Positions 2,326 to 47,858 of a DNA stretch of 47,858 bases are shown here, in pieces; the stretch's first letter is position 1; every line of letters starts with the position of its first letter. Location: assembly GCA_903896675.1 (NCBI GenBank), contig CAITYU010000005.1:1-47858 (forward strand). The letters are read 5' to 3'. This stretch comes from an uncultured Planctomycetaceae bacterium. GTDB taxonomy: Bacteria > Planctomycetota > Planctomycetia > Planctomycetales > Planctomycetaceae. The notes under the pieces were generated by a model, which saw only the letters and a list, made by a program, of their open reading frames with translations, was not told the origin of the DNA and made no database searches. Position numbers and translations under genes: made by a program.

Positions 2326-2350
2326 ACTCGGCTCCCGATCTTTCATCCTG

Positions 2351-2378
2351 AACGCCTGCCTCAGCAGGCGTTTTTTTG
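2351..2378 (+). terminator. Intrinsic terminator
   Basis: A perfect 9-bp stem (AACGCCTGC with GCAGGCGTT) closes a CTCA tetraloop and is followed by a run of seven T. It lies 25 bases after the coiled-coil gene and 29 bases before the AroDE-like gene, so the two genes are probably separate transcription units. Confidence 0.9.
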
Positions 2379-2406: not shown

Positions 2407-3852
2407 ATGATCTGTATCACAGTCACCCCGGAAAGTCGTACGCTGGCCCCTGTGGATCTTTATAACGCCAGCAGTCGCTGTGATCTGATCGAACTTTGTC
2501 TGGATCATTTCATCAACGAGCCGAATGTTGGGGAGCTGCTGCGAGTTGTTGACAAACCGATCATGGTGTCCTGTCGGTCTGAAAAGGATGGTGGAGCGTG
2601 GAAGGGGACTGAGCAGCAGCGCATCCAGTTGTTGCGGGAAGCGATTGTCGCCGGCCCGGCGTACGTTGAGCTGGATCTGGAAGTGGCCTCCAGTATCCCC
2701 CGTTTCGGAAAAACGCAGCGAGTGGTCTCATTCACCAGTCTCAATCGACCACTCAATCGCATTGACGACGTGTTTGAGCAGTGTCGGCAGGCGAAAGCGG
2801 ATGTTGTGAAATTCACGTGGCTGACGGAGGACATGGATGCCGCGTGGCCGCTGCTGGCTGCCGTCACACAGCCGCGAGATTTACCCATCGTGGGACTGGG
2901 AGTTGGCAGGGCGGGTCTGACGTTTTCACTGCTGGGCCGGAAGTACGGATCGCCGTGGATCTATGCGGCACTGGAACCTGGCATGGAAGCATTTTCCCGG
3001 CAGCCCACTGTGTGGCAACTGCGGGACGACTATCATTGGGATTCCATTGGCGGCAAGACTCGATTCCTGGGAATCATCGGATACGGCGAGTCTGAAAACA
3101 TAGCAGCGCGGGTTCTGAATGCCGCCTTTCAGCAGATGGATCGGCCCATACGCTGCCTGCCGCTGCAGCCAGGCGATCTGAGTCGTTTCCCCAAAATGCT
3201 GGAGAAGCTGGGGATCAACGGTCTGGTGGTGGATCCGGCGTGGCGTGGTGATCTGTTTGAGCTGGCAGATTCGTGTGATGAATTCGGAACGCTGGGCCGC
3301 CGAGTTGATGTGCTGATGGAAGGTCAGCAGGGACGGCGCGGCGTGTGTACGATTTTCAATGCGGTCGATGTTGCAGGACAGACCCTGACTGGAAATGCGG
3401 AATGGACGGGTCGAGGTGCTGTGACAGTGCTGGGTCACGGTCCGATGGCTCGCGCAGCTGCCGCCTTCTTTGGACAGCGGGGTGCTGCGGTAAGTCTTGC
3501 GGGGATGTCGGATAACGCGGCTGCCGGCATGGCTCGTGAAGCCGGTTGCCGGCACGTTGTCTGGAACGCCGTGTATGATCTGCGATGTGACACACTTGTG
3601 CTGGCCGATCCGGATATGCCCTGCGGGCTCTCGAAGGGCCAGGTGAATCCGGGGATCATCCGTGAGCGACAGACGGTGGTGGATCTGACTGTCGGCCTGT
3701 CCGGTTCGCCTTTTGCGGAAGAAGCGGTTGCCCGCGGAGCGAGGTATCTTGATCCCGTCTCAGTCTTTGCCGCGAACCTGAATCTTCAGTTCCGACAGTT
3801 GACCGGTCGTGATCTGCCGCCGAATGCTTTTGAAAAGGGTCTGGCGGAATAA
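2407..3852 (+). CDS. AroD/AroE-like fusion (type I 3-dehydroquinase + shikimate dehydrogenase folds), probable pseudoenzyme
   Basis: A 481-residue protein collinear with plant-type DHQ dehydratase/shikimate dehydrogenase fusions. Residues 1-210 match the type I dehydroquinase barrel and 218-475 match the shikimate dehydrogenase fold with a C-terminal NADP Rossmann motif (VLGHGPMARA, 341-350). By eye, Schiff-base lysine K135 (ADVVKF), E29 and Q199 are kept. However, the Arg of the ExRxD motif is C31, the general-base His is T110 (VVSFTSL) and the substrate-binding Arg is S174. In the second half the HSxSP loop is lost (IIGYGESENIAAR), the catalytic Lys is R280, the GAVN Asn is D301 and the catalytic Asp is E332. 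A database search would probably name it AroDE, but the normal shikimate reactions look unlikely. It may have a regulatory or new role. Start is the ATG just after the upstream terminator. Confidence 0.85.
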   Translation: MICITVTPESRTLAPVDLYNASSRCDLIELCLDHFINEPNVGELLRVVDKPIMVSCRSEKDGGAWKGTEQQRIQLLREAIVAGPAYVELDLEVASSIPRFGKTQRVVSFTSLNRPLNRIDDVFEQCRQAKADVVKFTWLTEDMDAAWPLLAAVTQPRDLPIVGLGVGRAGLTFSLLGRKYGSPWIYAALEPGMEAFSRQPTVWQLRDDYHWDSIGGKTRFLGIIGYGESENIAARVLNAAFQQMDRPIRCLPLQPGDLSRFPKMLEKLGINGLVVDPAWRGDLFELADSCDEFGTLGRRVDVLMEGQQGRRGVCTIFNAVDVAGQTLTGNAEWTGRGAVTVLGHGPMARAAAAFFGQRGAAVSLAGMSDNAAAGMAREAGCRHVVWNAVYDLRCDTLVLADPDMPCGLSKGQVNPGIIRERQTVVDLTVGLSGSPFAEEAVARGARYLDPVSVFAANLNLQFRQLTGRDLPPNAFEKGLAE

Positions 3853-3853
3853 T

Positions 3854-3886
3854 CAGCCCTGAAAGCCGAGCGGGCTTTCAGGGCTG
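3854..3886. terminator. Long hairpin between convergent genes, likely bidirectional terminator
   Basis: A perfect 14-bp stem (CAGCCCTGAAAGCC pairs with 3873-3886) with a 5-base loop starts one base after the AroDE-like stop codon and lies 28 bases beyond the stop of the convergent EF-hand gene. There is no T-run on either side, so termination efficiency is uncertain; the position and perfect pairing argue for a terminator or a 3-prime end stabiliser. Confidence 0.65.
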
Positions 3887-3914: not shown

Positions 3915-4697
3915 TCATTCTGATGCGGGGCGTCGTGGGCGCTCTGGTGTGGCCCCGTCTTCTGCACGTGGTCGACCCGGGCGTCCGCCGGCTCCCGGAG
4001 CCCCACCGGCCCCTGGTCCTCGTCCTCCCGGAGGTCCACCACCCTGTCCGGGTCGCATGCCCTGACCCGGCCGTGGTGGCGGTGACTGCGCCAGCTTCAG
4101 CAGTTCATCGCGATCCAGTTTGCCATCGCCGTCGGCGTCAAACGACATGGCGTGTCGAACGAACCCTTCCGGCCCGCCGCCCTCAGGACCACCCGGTGGG
4201 CGGCCTTCGCCCTCAGGACCACGTGGCGGTCGGCCCGGTGGGCGACCTTCACCCTCGGGGCCACCCGGTGGAGGTCCCGGTGGACGGCCTTCACCTTCGG
4301 GGCCACCCGGCGGAGGTCCCGGTGGACGGCCTTCACCATCGGGGCCACCCGGCGGAGGTCCCGGTGGACGGCCTTCACCATCGGGGCCACCCGGCGGCCG
4401 GCCTGGCGGACGCATTTCTTCCCGCGAAATGACGCCGTCCTGATTGGCATCCAGAGTCTGCAGTGACGCGGTGGCCTCTTTCAATTCCTCGGCAGAGATG
4501 TCCCCGTCGCGGTTCCTGTCCAGTGCCTCCACCAGCGGATTCGGTCGGGGCCCGCGGCCACCTCCCGGTGGCTGTCCCTCACCGGGTGGCGGAGGATTGC
4601 CGCCACCTTCCGGCGGCTGTGCCGAAACCAGTGATGCACCCGCCAGCGACAGGCCCAGCAGGGCTGCCGTTAACATTGACCACGCATACTTTTTCAT
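3915..4697 (-). CDS. Secreted EF-hand protein with collagen-like Pro/Gly repeats
   Basis: A 260-residue protein with a signal peptide (MKKYAWSMLTAALLGLSLAG, cleaved after about VSA). Three EF-hand calcium loops are visible: DRNRDGDISAEEL, DANQDGVISREEM and, after the repeats, DADGDGKLDRDEL. Between the second and third loops lies a low-complexity region of 14-residue units of the type RPPGPPPGGPDGEG. Another Pro/Gly/Arg-rich tail follows. The start at 4697 is supported by a CAGGAG Shine-Dalgarno 7 bases upstream and by the signal peptide. It is the last gene of a probable operon: 35 bases after the YHYH gene, itself overlapping a two-component pair. Likely role: calcium-binding periplasmic or extracellular protein; the partner is unknown. 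Confidence 0.88.
   Translation of the reverse strand: MKKYAWSMLTAALLGLSLAGASLVSAQPPEGGGNPPPPGEGQPPGGGRGPRPNPLVEALDRNRDGDISAEELKEATASLQTLDANQDGVISREEMRPPGRPPGGPDGEGRPPGPPPGGPDGEGRPPGPPPGGPEGEGRPPGPPPGGPEGEGRPPGRPPRGPEGEGRPPGGPEGGGPEGFVRHAMSFDADGDGKLDRDELLKLAQSPPPRPGQGMRPGQGGGPPGGRGPGAGGAPGAGGRPGRPRAEDGATPERPRRPASE
4194..4408 (-). repeat. 42-bp in-frame tandem repeat (about five units) in the EF-hand gene
   Basis: The unit encodes 14 residues, RPPGPPPGGP followed by D or E and GEG. The central two to three copies are nearly identical at the DNA level, and the flanking copies are more diverged (RPPGRPPRGPEGEG, RPPGGPEG). Such an array can change copy number by slippage or unequal recombination without breaking the frame. 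Confidence 0.85.
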
Positions 4698-4732
4698 CTC
4701 TCGGCTCCTGAAAAAAACACTTTGAACCACAA

Positions 4733-19474: not shown

Positions 19475-19510
19475 AATTGCAGAGACACCCCATGCCGAGC
19501 CCTCAACCCC

Positions 19511-19611
19511 CTGGTAGGGCGAGGCCACCGCCGAGCCGTCAAACCCTCGGGAGGGCGAGGCTCCCGCCGAGCCGCCAAACCCCTCGGGAGGGCGAGGCTC
19601 CCGCCGAGCCG
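19511..19611 (+). repeat. Three forward copies of dispersed repeat
   Basis: Copies at about 19511-19538, 19546-19574 and 19583-19611 share the core GGCGAGGCTCCCGCCGAGCC; the first copy differs (GGCCACC). They are spaced about 36 bases apart by CAAACC-type spacers. They are oriented toward the three reverse copies at 19730-19870. Confidence 0.9.
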
Positions 19612-38384: not shown

Positions 38385-38537
38385 TGCCACTATCCTGATC
38401 TGAAAGCCACACTCTGATTTCCTCTGCGTTGTCGCAGAACCCACAGCCTGCATTCTAGCACTGTGAGACCGGGCTGCCACTGCGAGTCACCTGTCAGCGG
38501 GCTCAACGCGAAATCCTGAGTTTGCTGGGTTGCCTCC

Positions 38538-38730
38538 CCTTCGGGAGAGCGAAGCTCCTGCTGAGCCGAACTGTTCGTCTGGCCGCGGATTCCCACGGCT
38601 CGGCGGGAGCCTCGCCCTCACAAGTCTGGCTGCCGTACACCCCCTTCGGGAGGGCGAAGCTCCTGCTGAGCCGAACTACCAGTCTGGCCGCGGATTCTCA
38701 CGGCTCGACGGGAGCCTCGCCCTCACAAGG
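38538..38730. repeat. Two head-to-head pairs of dispersed repeat
   Basis: Forward copies at 38538-38571 and 38643-38676 (variant GGCGAAGCTCCTGCTGAGCC, the first with AGCGAAGC) each face a reverse copy at 38596-38624 and 38701-38730. The two pairs, with their spacers, look like a duplication of about 105 bp, since the flanking CTGGCCGCGGATTC is repeated too. Confidence 0.88.
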
Positions 38731-38769
38731 CCGGCACACGCAAACAGCGCAACCCTCACCACGTCGTTT

Positions 38770-38802
38770 TTCCGTGTTTTCCGTGTCCTTCCGTGGTGAA
38801 AT
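38770..38802 (+). repeat. CCGTGT-type short element
   Basis: TTCCGTGTTTTCCGTGTCCT followed by TCCGTGGTGAAAT, a tandem of a short motif. Related to the reverse-strand element at 19441-19474; in both places it sits beside the main repeat. Confidence 0.65.
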
Positions 38803-38846
38803 CAATCCAACCAAACACCACAATAACACCCGTTGGTTTCCACCTG

Positions 38847-38978
38847 CGGCTCGGCGGGAGCCTCGCCCTCCCAAGTTGACCGGCTCGGCGGAAGCCACGC
38901 CCTCCCAAGTTGAGCGGCTCGGCAGGAGCCTCGCCCTTCCAGGGTTGACCGGCTCGGCGGTGGCCTCGCCCTCACAGG
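38847..38978 (-). repeat. Four tandem reverse copies of dispersed repeat
   Basis: Copies at about 38847-38876, 38881-38910, 38915-38944 and 38950-38978, spaced 34 bases apart by TTGAC/TTGAG spacers. Cores differ slightly (GGAAGCCACGCC, GGTGGCCTCGCC), showing independent divergence of the copies. Confidence 0.88.
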
Positions 38979-46285: not shown

Positions 46286-47858
46286 GCACTGTACCCGGCA
46301 CTGTTCGATCACTGCAGGTCTGGCTGCTGTTGGCGGTACTGCAATGCAGTCTGCTGCCGGGCCGAATCTGCACGGGCCAGGATCAGACACAGCGTCCACT
46401 GCCACTGCCTGACCGGGCGGACAGTGTTCCGGCCGCTTCACGACAGTTGCTGCAGAAACTGCGGCAGACGATCGAGCAGCAGCAGCGAACTCCAGTGCCC
46501 CCCGCAGCGCTGGATCAACTGGGAAGCATGCTGAAAAAGCTGCAGGATCAGTTGCCGCCGGACGTTGTGCCGCCGGGATTGCAGGGCATGTCACCACAGG
46601 CTTTGCAGGAAAGTCTGCAGCAGCCACAGACACAGCAAAAGCTGAAGGACATGCTGCAGCAGTTCCGGCAGGATGGACTGTTGCCTCCCGTGTCGCCGCC
46701 AGGGACCTCGCCCCCACCAGCCGCTCCGCCCCTGCCGGCCCCCAGACTGACTCCGGAATCCACCGAATCACTCAAGGATTTTCTCCAGCAGTTGCAACAG
46801 CAGGCACAGCCCTTTCAGCCACCGCAGGAAACTCCGTCGTTGCCTGCCCAGCCTTCACAGCCAGAGAATCGCACACCTCAGGCTGCCCCTGTCGCACCTG
46901 CAGACTCGGAGTCATCGGCAAAGCCCGAAACCGCACCTGCTCCTGCCGGCCCGCCACCGCGAACCCTGCGGCGACGCGATAATCTCGGCCCGACCGCCCC
47001 CACGCCTCGCAGTCGCCTGCAACCGCCACGCCCACTTCCTCCTGCGGCCCCGGAAGTAACCCCGGAAGTCCCTTCCGAGTCCCGGACGCCGCGGTTGCGT
47101 CAACCAGTGCCCTTGCCAGACACTCCCGGGATGCAGCCACCGCAACCGGGCACTCAGCCACAACCGGGCACTCAGCCGCAACCGGGCACTCAGCCGCAAC
47201 CGGGTACTCAGCCGCAACCGGGAGTTCAGCCACAGCCGGGCACTCAGCCGCAACCGGGAACGCAGCCACAACCGGGCAATCAGCCACAGCCGGGCACTCA
47301 GCCACAGCCGGGCACTCAGCCGCAACCGGGCACTCAGCCGCAACCGGGAGCTCAGCCGCAACCGGGCACTCAGCCACAGCCGGGCACTCAGCCGCAACCG
47401 GGAGCTCAGCCGCAACCGGGCACTCAGCCACAGCCAGGCACTCAGCCACAACCGGGAACTCGACCACAGCCAGGCACTCAACCACAACCGGGCACTCAGC
47501 CACAGCCGGGCACTCAGCCGCAACCGGGAGCTCAGCCGCAACCGGGCACTCAGCCGCAACCGGGCACTCAGCCGCAACCGGGAACGCAGCCACAAACGGG
47601 CAATCAGCCACAACCGGGCAATCAGCCGCAACCGGGCACTCAGCCGCAACCGGGAGCTCAGCCGCAACCGGGCACTCAGCCGCAACCGGGAGCTCAGCCG
47701 CAACCGGGAGCTCAGCCGCAACCGGGCACTCAGCCACAACCGGGCAATCAGCCGCAACCGGGAACTCAACCGCAACCGGGAGTTCAGCCGCAACCGGGCA
47801 CTCAGCCACAGCCGGGCACTCAGCCGCAACCGGGCAATCAGCCACAGCCGGGCACTCA
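46282..47858 (+). CDS. Secreted Pro/Gln-rich protein with hexapeptide repeats, 3-prime end outside window
   Basis: The frame starts at ATG 46282 (overlapping the upstream TGA) and has no stop to the window end, 525 full codons. A signal-peptide-like start (VWLLLAVLQCSLLPGRICT) is followed by a Gln/Leu helical region (LQKLRQTIEQQQ, LKDFLQQLQQQ), a Pro/Ala-rich spacer (PPAAPPLPAPRL), and then, from about residue 288, hexapeptides of the type PGTQPQ with variants PGA, PGN and PGV, to the edge. Real function unknown; repeats of this kind may span the cell envelope or bind other molecules. Total length cannot be known. The long open frames on the opposite strand are repeat artefacts. Confidence 0.82.
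   Translation, partial: MSTVPGTVRSLQVWLLLAVLQCSLLPGRICTGQDQTQRPLPLPDRADSVPAASRQLLQKLRQTIEQQQRTPVPPAALDQLGSMLKKLQDQLPPDVVPPGLQGMSPQALQESLQQPQTQQKLKDMLQQFRQDGLLPPVSPPGTSPPPAAPPLPAPRLTPESTESLKDFLQQLQQQAQPFQPPQETPSLPAQPSQPENRTPQAAPVAPADSESSAKPETAPAPAGPPPRTLRRRDNLGPTAPTPRSRLQPPRPLPPAAPEVTPEVPSESRTPRLRQPVPLPDTPGMQPPQPGTQPQPGTQPQPGTQPQPGTQPQPGVQPQPGTQPQPGTQPQPGNQPQPGTQPQPGTQPQPGTQPQPGAQPQPGTQPQPGTQPQPGAQPQPGTQPQPGTQPQPGTRPQPGTQPQPGTQPQPGTQPQPGAQPQPGTQPQPGTQPQPGTQPQTGNQPQPGNQPQPGTQPQPGAQPQPGTQPQPGAQPQPGAQPQPGTQPQPGNQPQPGTQPQPGVQPQPGTQPQPGTQPQPGNQPQPGT
47146..47858 (+). repeat. 18-bp minisatellite of about 40 units
   Basis: CCGGGCACTCAGCCGCAA repeats with few variants; 713 bases, about 39.6 units, still running at the window end. 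Each unit encodes six residues (PGTQPQ). Variants differ mainly at the fourth and sixth codons. The array is in frame throughout. Confidence 0.95.

Follow-up and report, generated by a model that had tools for sequence, protein, structure and literature searches.

In type I dehydroquinases (AroD), a lysine forms an imine with the C3 ketone and a histidine handles proton transfer. Both catalytic residues are named in a study of Candida albicans Aro1, according to which the H143Q substitution abolished, and the H143A substitution severely cut, the activity of E. coli AroD (PMC9074039). In Aro1, the catalytic His is replaced in an inactive, fused type I dehydroquinase domain, a type II enzyme is available as a backup, and the Lys is also changed in three of seven Candida species (PMC9074039). 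Fusions of the AroD-AroE type that are kept beside a working enzyme and held to be inactive include the fungal proteins QutR/QA-1S, GaaX and TanX; QutR, GaaX and TanX are, as a working hypothesis, considered inactive yet inducer-binding (PMC10512348). These repressors resemble the last three domains of AROM, shikimate kinase included, the shikimate dehydrogenase (SDH) domains of GaaX are not recognised by Pfam, and four repressor genes of A. niger each lie next to an activator gene, of the Zn2Cys6 type (PMC10512348). Dead-site fusions of the AroD-AroE type are already known in fungi, and the kind is thus a known one.

In this work, profile searches, structure prediction and comparative genomics were applied to a fusion gene in the window, i.e. 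the whole stretch of 47,858 nucleotides that was analysed. Its product, AroDE2, is best explained as an ancient paralogue of the fused dehydroquinase-shikimate dehydrogenase of planctomycetes, and comparative sequence analysis showed it to belong to one clade distinct from the canonical AroDE1 of the same genomes. The alignments likewise showed that the His and Arg that serve dehydration, and the Lys and Asp that serve shikimate oxidation, are gone from AroDE2, while the Schiff-base Lys and several AroD pocket residues are kept. As in the fungal proteins, an AroD-AroE-type fusion is kept beside a working enzyme, and, as in GaaX, its SDH half is not recognised by Pfam. However, AroDE2 has no kinase part, its 481 amino acids being filled by the dehydroquinase-like and SDH-like halves; its clade lies within planctomycete AroDE, unlike the AROM-derived repressors; and it has no activator gene as a neighbour. 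With Candida Aro1 it shares the replaced catalytic His in a fused type I dehydroquinase, whereas its backup is a second type I AroDE, its Lys is kept, and its SDH site is also lost.

In the open-licence PMC literature searched, we found neither a description of the AroDE2 paralogue nor a bacterial clade with the Lys kept and the SDH site lost; the main text of an essential-gene paper on Planctopirus limnophila (PMC10632474) has no mention of shikimate, dehydroquinate or aromatic amino. Of interest here is that an ancient clade, present in nearly all sampled genomes of one bacterial family, retains the covalent Lys while lacking the dehydratase His and the substrate Arg, and carries along a second whole enzyme, the SDH half, that has no active site. 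As an enzyme, AroDE2 would fill in a missing reaction in the metabolism of planctomycetes; as a sensor, it would offer a bacterial counterpart to the fungal repressors derived from AROM.

Domain organization and active-site residues of AroDE2

The first-pass annotation of this DNA described an intact, well-framed gene for an AroD/AroE fusion. A single open frame of 481 codons at 2407-3852 (+ strand) agrees with the first part of this description, and the full-length fold considered below confirms the second. The gene and its two halves are as follows.

2407..3852, + strand: AroDE2 coding sequence, 481 aa (open frame, profile matches, fold model)
2407..3051, + strand: AroD half (residues 1-215), similar to type I dehydroquinase and under strong conservation (PF01487, E = 2.7e-32)
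3052..3849, + strand: AroE half (residues 216-481), similar to shikimate dehydrogenase, with the fold retained but no active site

The Pfam family DHquinase_I (PF01487) matches residues 3-207 (E = 2.7e-32). Because the score of 113.2 bits is well above the cut-off of 22.2, AroDE2 can be miscalled a dehydroquinase, a chemistry not expected of it. No SDH family was detected in AroDE2 by Pfam up to an E-value of 1. The NCBIfam AroDE model NF006802 spans residues 1-463 but reaches only 31.8 bits, far below its cut-off of 598, and the NCBIfam AroE model scores 28.1 bits on the second half, far below 200.2. In a Pfam scan of 21 AroDE2 members (E-value 0.001), DHquinase_I was found in all 21, F420_oxidored in three and Shikimate_DH in two, and a DNA-binding domain in none.

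An AlphaFold2 model of AroDE2 was obtained with a pTM of 0.88 and a mean pLDDT of 91.1. The solved structures closest to it are those of Arabidopsis DHQ-SDH (Foldseek TM 0.83-0.85; Z 34.5, rmsd 2.7 and 22% identity over 461 residues). The barrel of the AroD half matches the Salmonella and E. coli AroD structures with Z of about 25 over 213 residues, and the two-domain SDH fold of residues 213-481 matches 2hk8_A with Z of 24.5, the range for solved SDH structures being Z 22-25. Given the confident model and these best structural relatives, the predicted AroDE2 is a complete AroD-AroE fold, and a chance match can be dismissed.

Active-site residues were assigned by three alignments: MAFFT with E. 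coli AroD and AroE and 46 canonical planctomycete AroDE proteins; phmmer with Arabidopsis 2gpt, which covers the AroD half but only the beginning of the SDH one; and profile-profile hhalign with six canonical AroDE proteins. The structural comparison with solved enzymes gave aligned ranges rather than residue pairs. We take Arg213 of AroD to be the residue that binds the substrate carboxylate, Lys65 and Asp102 to be the catalytic residues of SDH, and the SxS loop of SDH to be substrate-binding. The main positions (E. coli numbering for the counterparts) are the following.

2497..2499, + strand: C31, replacing AroD Arg48 (MAFFT, hhalign)
2575..2577, + strand: R57, the counterpart of AroD Arg82, kept (alignment)
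2734..2736, + strand: T110, replacing catalytic His143 of AroD (alignments)
2809..2811, + strand: K135, the counterpart of Schiff-base Lys170 of AroD, kept (alignments)
2926..2928, + strand: S174, replacing substrate-binding Arg213 of AroD (alignments)
3001..3003, + strand: Q199, the counterpart of lid Gln236 of AroD, kept (alignments)
3244..3246, + strand: R280, replacing SDH Lys65, in a column that varies across the family (MAFFT, hhalign)
3307..3309, + strand: D301, replacing SDH Asn86 (alignments)
3352..3354, + strand: I316, replacing SDH Asp102 (MAFFT, hhalign)

In the MAFFT alignment, AroD Glu46 is also kept, as E29, Asp114 corresponds to E88, and Glu86 corresponds to D61, an Asp being present at this site in 45 of the 46 canonical planctomycete AroDE proteins as well. 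On the SDH side, Thr61 is replaced by D276, and the columns of Ser14 and Ser16 (the SxS loop) hold N231 and A233, i.e. the substrate loop is absent. The pairs recovered by phmmer against 2gpt include C31, T110, K135, S174 and R280, and hhalign reproduces the MAFFT pairs at the sites named in the first-pass annotation, I316 included. The alignments uphold its assignments of C31, T110, K135, S174 and Q199 in the dehydroquinase half, and of R280 for Lys65, D301 for Asn86 and a missing HSxSP loop in the SDH half. Its proposal of E332 as the counterpart of the SDH Asp is wrong, since the Asp102 column holds I316 in both MAFFT and hhalign. Catalytic residues at shifted positions, a possibility it had raised, were not seen, MAFFT, hhalign and phmmer (the latter over the AroD half and the SDH start) being concordant.

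Compared with Arabidopsis DHQ-SDH (2o7q, 2o7s and 2gpt) and canonical planctomycete AroDE, AroDE2 thus has the same domain order, fold, Schiff-base Lys, Glu46, Arg82 and Gln236, but lacks His143, Arg213, the SDH catalytic residues, the HSxSP loop and the NRT motif for NADP. The comparison with the Salmonella and E. coli AroD enzymes is analogous: the barrel, Lys170, Glu46, Arg82 and Gln236 are shared, whereas the catalytic His and Arg213 are missing.

Phylogeny and distribution of AroDE2

The source genome (5.89 Mb in 589 contigs, 95% complete) contains two DHquinase_I matches. One is the window gene; the other, here AroDE1, is a canonical AroDE of 505 aa that adjoins a semialdehyde-dehydrogenase (argC-like) gene on contig C289. 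The single Shikimate_dh_N match found in the genome lies in AroDE1, and no type II dehydroquinase was found in this 95% complete, 589-contig assembly. This genome-wide search bears out the expectation that normal aroD and aroE functions are encoded elsewhere. AroDE1 and AroDE2 are about 27% identical.

A quick IQ-TREE phylogeny, with SH-aLRT as the sole support measure, was inferred from 81 rows after 25 of 106 (fragments, odd rows and close relatives) had been removed. It splits 47 AroDE2 rows from 33 AroDE1 rows by a branch with SH-aLRT 100 and a stem length of 1.28. This stem is placed among planctomycete AroDE1 families, in a poorly resolved region of the tree. AroDE2 proteins come from four families, coded f1, f3, f4 and f8, so the duplication most likely predates the split of these families. 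Genome G039, from another family, carries three divergent AroDE2-like copies (L038, L039 and L040) in addition to a canonical AroDE; all three keep the Lys, have Thr at the His143 site and are without Arg213. Of these, L039 and L040 are very long rows that meet in the tree, and their position is unsure. The home-family genome G075 has two AroDE2 copies, L211 and L212, whose identities with the window gene are about 35% and 46%.

AroDE2 was searched for in three genome sets. Among 59 related genomes, it was found in 16 of 18 from the same genus (the source genome included) and in 18 of 19 others from the same family. In a class sample of 397 genomes, it was present in 120 of the 124 listed home-family genomes, a count that takes in fragments (G008 and G029) and two matches with an in-frame TGA (G030 and G262); the four home-family genomes without it are G014, G195, G326 and G353. 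In the other 273 genomes of this sample, AroDE2 was detected in at least 28 (23 from f3, four from f8 and one from f4) at E <= 4.3e-113, a lower bound, with G287 (1.4e-99) left uncounted and five unmatched genomes outside the matches listed. The phylum sample of 392 genomes gave 28 matches at E <= 1e-105, all from the home family, with 344 unmatched rows outside the listing. The profile used came from home-family members alone, and distant AroDE2 proteins may escape it. A second, AroDE1-level match accompanies AroDE2 in nearly all genomes that carry it, the exceptions seen being G010, G268 and G404 in the home family and G167 and G341 outside it, while most other families in the class sample have the AroDE1-level match only. 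The 80 named relatives taken up, out of 159 found, have planctomycete titles, among them Fuerstiella, Gimesia, Schlesneria, Planctomicrobium, Thalassoglobus neptunius and Planctomycetaceae MAGs, apart from a few with other or doubtful titles (for example Candidatus Kuenenia or plain "bacterium").

Residue conservation in the two halves

Residue counts were made over 101 AroDE2 representatives, selected from 129 rows at a 98% identity cut after exclusion of four rows (L017, L034, L036 and L053) that were fragmentary or odd; their pairwise identity is 24-98% (median 44%). The Schiff-base Lys is present in 100 of them, the exception being an Arg in L207. A 90% identity cut, leaving 87 representatives, gave a similar pattern (Lys in 86 of 87). 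His143 is lost in 100 of 101, its column holding Thr in 85, Ala in nine, Ser in four, and Asn and Arg in one each; the sole representative with this His, L037, still has Ser in place of Arg213. Arg213 is gone in all 101 proteins and replaced by Ser in 88. Glu46 is retained in all 101, Arg82 in 98 (Lys in the other three) and Gln236 in 93, and the Asp114 column holds Glu in 99. Arg48, present in canonical AroDE, is lost in most home-family AroDE2: its column holds Cys in 72 representatives, Arg in 20, Gly in seven and Ala in two, and the Arg is retained in 19 of 21 members from other families, so that its loss is mainly a home-family trait. W184 and E190, which differ from AroDE1, are invariant in 31 of 31 AroDE2 rows.

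In the SDH half, Thr61, Lys65 and Asp102 are jointly retained in none of the 101 representatives, and the Asn86 column holds Asp in 92. The three glycines of the GxGG motif for NADP are present, in order, in 100, 54 and 44 representatives, and the columns of the NRT motif hold mostly Ser, Gly or Ala, then Pro, then Asp, Ser or Asn. Because the GxGG glycines are partly lost and the NRT columns are altered in this way, binding of NADP by AroDE2 seems unlikely, while binding of NAD would be possible.

The paralogues were compared in 23 home-family genomes carrying both AroDE1 and AroDE2. In the AroD half, 70 of 215 positions are at least 95% conserved in AroDE2 versus 72 in AroDE1, with mean pairwise identities of 0.654 and 0.669, respectively. 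In the SDH half, the corresponding values are 16 of 266 positions versus 71, and 0.389 versus 0.580. The AroD pocket sites of AroDE2 have a mean conservation of 0.77 against 0.65 for the whole half (random sets equally high in 77 of 5000 draws), a value still lower than the 0.88 of the AroDE1 pocket. Its SDH pocket sites have 0.48 against 0.46 for the half (1885 of 5000), and the AroE pocket of AroDE1 has 1.00. By these measures the halves behave differently: conservation of the AroD half equals that seen in the working copy, whereas the SDH active site is freely variable.

dN/dS ratios were estimated by the NG86 method for same-genus pairs with dS < 1.5. Those of AroDE2, a comparison proposed in the first-pass annotation, are low, with medians of 0.021 for the AroD half and 0.067 for the SDH half, from five and six pairs only; the AroDE1 medians for the two halves are 0.046 (16 pairs) and 0.048 (nine pairs). 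The SDH half of AroDE2 is relaxed yet still constrained. Among the AroDE2 matches listed for the class sample, in-frame stops, both TGA, occur in G030, near the end of the gene, and in G262. Retention across the family and beyond, few stops and the low ratios, albeit from few pairs, support the earlier impression of a gene that is maintained rather than decaying.

Candidate functions and genomic context

A pseudoenzyme or a new reaction had been proposed for this protein, and the loss of residues of both reactions in a retained clade is in line with that. Dehydroquinate dehydration is not expected of AroDE2 because His143 and Arg213 are gone, and neither is shikimate oxidation, because Lys65 and Asp102 are gone. 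Imine chemistry with another carbonyl ligand would best account for a Lys that survives, within a conserved half, in 100 of 101 representatives. We consider it about an even chance (probability near 0.5) that AroDE2 is a Schiff-base barrel neofunctionalised to act on a different carbonyl compound, the SDH half being a scaffold. We are somewhat more tentative in proposing that it is a new class-I (lysine-imine) enzyme of planctomycetes, derived from the dehydroquinase barrel, with the dehydrogenase half as a fossil scaffold. The (beta/alpha)8 barrel would still make an imine through K135, and the partner would be a carbonyl compound that either has no carboxylate or places it elsewhere than where Arg213 binds. 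Without His143 there would be no elimination of water from dehydroquinate, and another lysine-imine reaction, such as an aldol or retro-aldol reaction, an isomerisation or a different elimination, may take place instead. The SDH half, its active site lost, may serve as a scaffold or interaction domain, and both original shikimate steps would be carried out by AroDE1.

The retained Lys argues for an enzyme, although a covalent or non-covalent sensor could likewise retain it. Further points against the enzyme reading are the Arg at the Lys site of L207, the His143 still present in L037, an AroD pocket less conserved than that of AroDE1, the absence of a conserved gene neighbour, the four home-family genomes without the gene and the two matches with an in-frame TGA. 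By analogy with the fungal QutR/QA-1S, GaaX and TanX, AroDE2 might be a catalytically dead metabolite sensor or regulator whose AroD pocket would take up a ligand of the shikimate or sugar type, perhaps held reversibly via the Lys, and which would control a partner protein. This is the main rival reading, possible but less likely than an enzyme: fungal fusions of this type are held to be inactive regulators in the working hypothesis of PMC10512348, the AroDE2 pocket is conserved despite the absent catalytic His, and the SDH half is available as an interaction domain, but the near-invariant Lys exceeds the needs of non-covalent binding, no DNA-binding domain was detected among the 21 scanned members (Pfam, E-value 0.001), and no neighbour is kept beyond near relatives, whereas the A. 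niger repressor genes adjoin those of activators (PMC10512348). AroDE2 might instead bind AroDE1 as a non-catalytic subunit and modulate the stability or activity of AroDE1, but the Schiff-base Lys would be superfluous in a mere partner. That role would fit the retained overall fold and the AroDE1-level match that accompanies AroDE2 in nearly all genomes, but we regard it as improbable; most other class-sample families show an AroDE1-level match only, so AroDE1 does not need AroDE2.

It is very improbable that AroDE2 still runs dehydroquinase or shikimate dehydrogenase chemistry via substitute residues. Lys170, Glu46, Arg82 and Gln236 are indeed kept, and D61 at the Glu86 site agrees with 45 of 46 canonical planctomycete AroDE proteins; against this stand the losses of His143 (100 of 101) and Arg213 (101 of 101), the Thr61/Lys65/Asp102 set being intact in none of 101, the presence of a canonical copy in the source genome, and the inactivation of E. 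coli AroD by H143Q (PMC9074039). A decaying duplicate, i.e. a pseudogene in the making, would account for the relaxed SDH half, the four same-family genomes without the gene and the in-frame TGA codons in G030 and G262. With no stop in the other AroDE2 matches listed, low dN/dS, and replacements that are specific and shared rather than random, this has hardly any likelihood.

The flanks of the gene contain two hairpins.

2350..2373, + strand: terminator-like hairpin with a T-run, between the upstream gene and aroDE2 (terminator scan)
3855..3885, + strand: perfect hairpin with a 13-bp stem, just past the stop codon, without a T-run (read by eye)

The upstream hairpin gave two overlapping rows in the scan against a shuffle mean of 1.2, a count not above chance. 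The hairpin reported earlier after the gene is present, at 3855-3885; it lacks a T-run and is not among the hits of the terminator scan.

Gene neighbourhoods were compared in 79 loci (78 of the 80 relatives, without L091 and L103, plus the window), where mechanical ORF picking recovered AroDE2 itself in 75, and in a second set of 46 loci with other families included. No gene neighbour conserved beyond near relatives was found in either set, and aroDE2 appears to stand alone, outside any conserved neighbourhood. Synteny among near relatives comprises a coiled-coil gene upstream of aroDE2 (8 of 79 loci), a gene that has no Pfam match (14 loci) and comes after a fabI-like one (8 loci), and, in Schlesneria-like genomes, a pfkB-like gene (6 loci). 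In the examples scanned, the adjoining genes that have a Pfam match fall into unrelated classes: fabI-like, pfkB, pyridine-nucleotide disulphide oxidoreductase, FMN-binding/ferredoxin protein and outer membrane efflux protein. A family judged sulfatase-like by eye lies near 8 of 46 loci, on the same strand in two and the opposite strand in six and at varying distances, and was given no weight. Opposite-strand clusters at distance 0 (39, 21 and 9 of 46 loci) are shadow frames of aroDE2.

In the window, the upstream gene (745-2325) encodes a 526-aa protein with a coiled coil and, by eye, an N-terminal membrane-like segment; its only Pfam match is a weak one to Golgin_A5 at 20.5 bits, below the cut-off of 31.7. 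The product of the minus-strand ORF 3915-4730 is rich in Gly and Pro, with stretches that by eye resemble EF-hands, and the ORF contains a 42-bp tandem repeat of about five copies (4192-4397). Two tandem arrays at 38536-38973, with 105-bp and 34/69-bp units, have a common core that by eye is GGGAGCCTCGCCCTC-like; a core resembling GGGAGCCTCGCCCTC is present in reverse at 19494-19611, and these may belong to a dispersed repeat family of the genome. An 18-bp tandem array of about 40 copies with 86% matches occupies 47140-47858, reaching the end of the window, and the long open frames there are likely products of the repeat.
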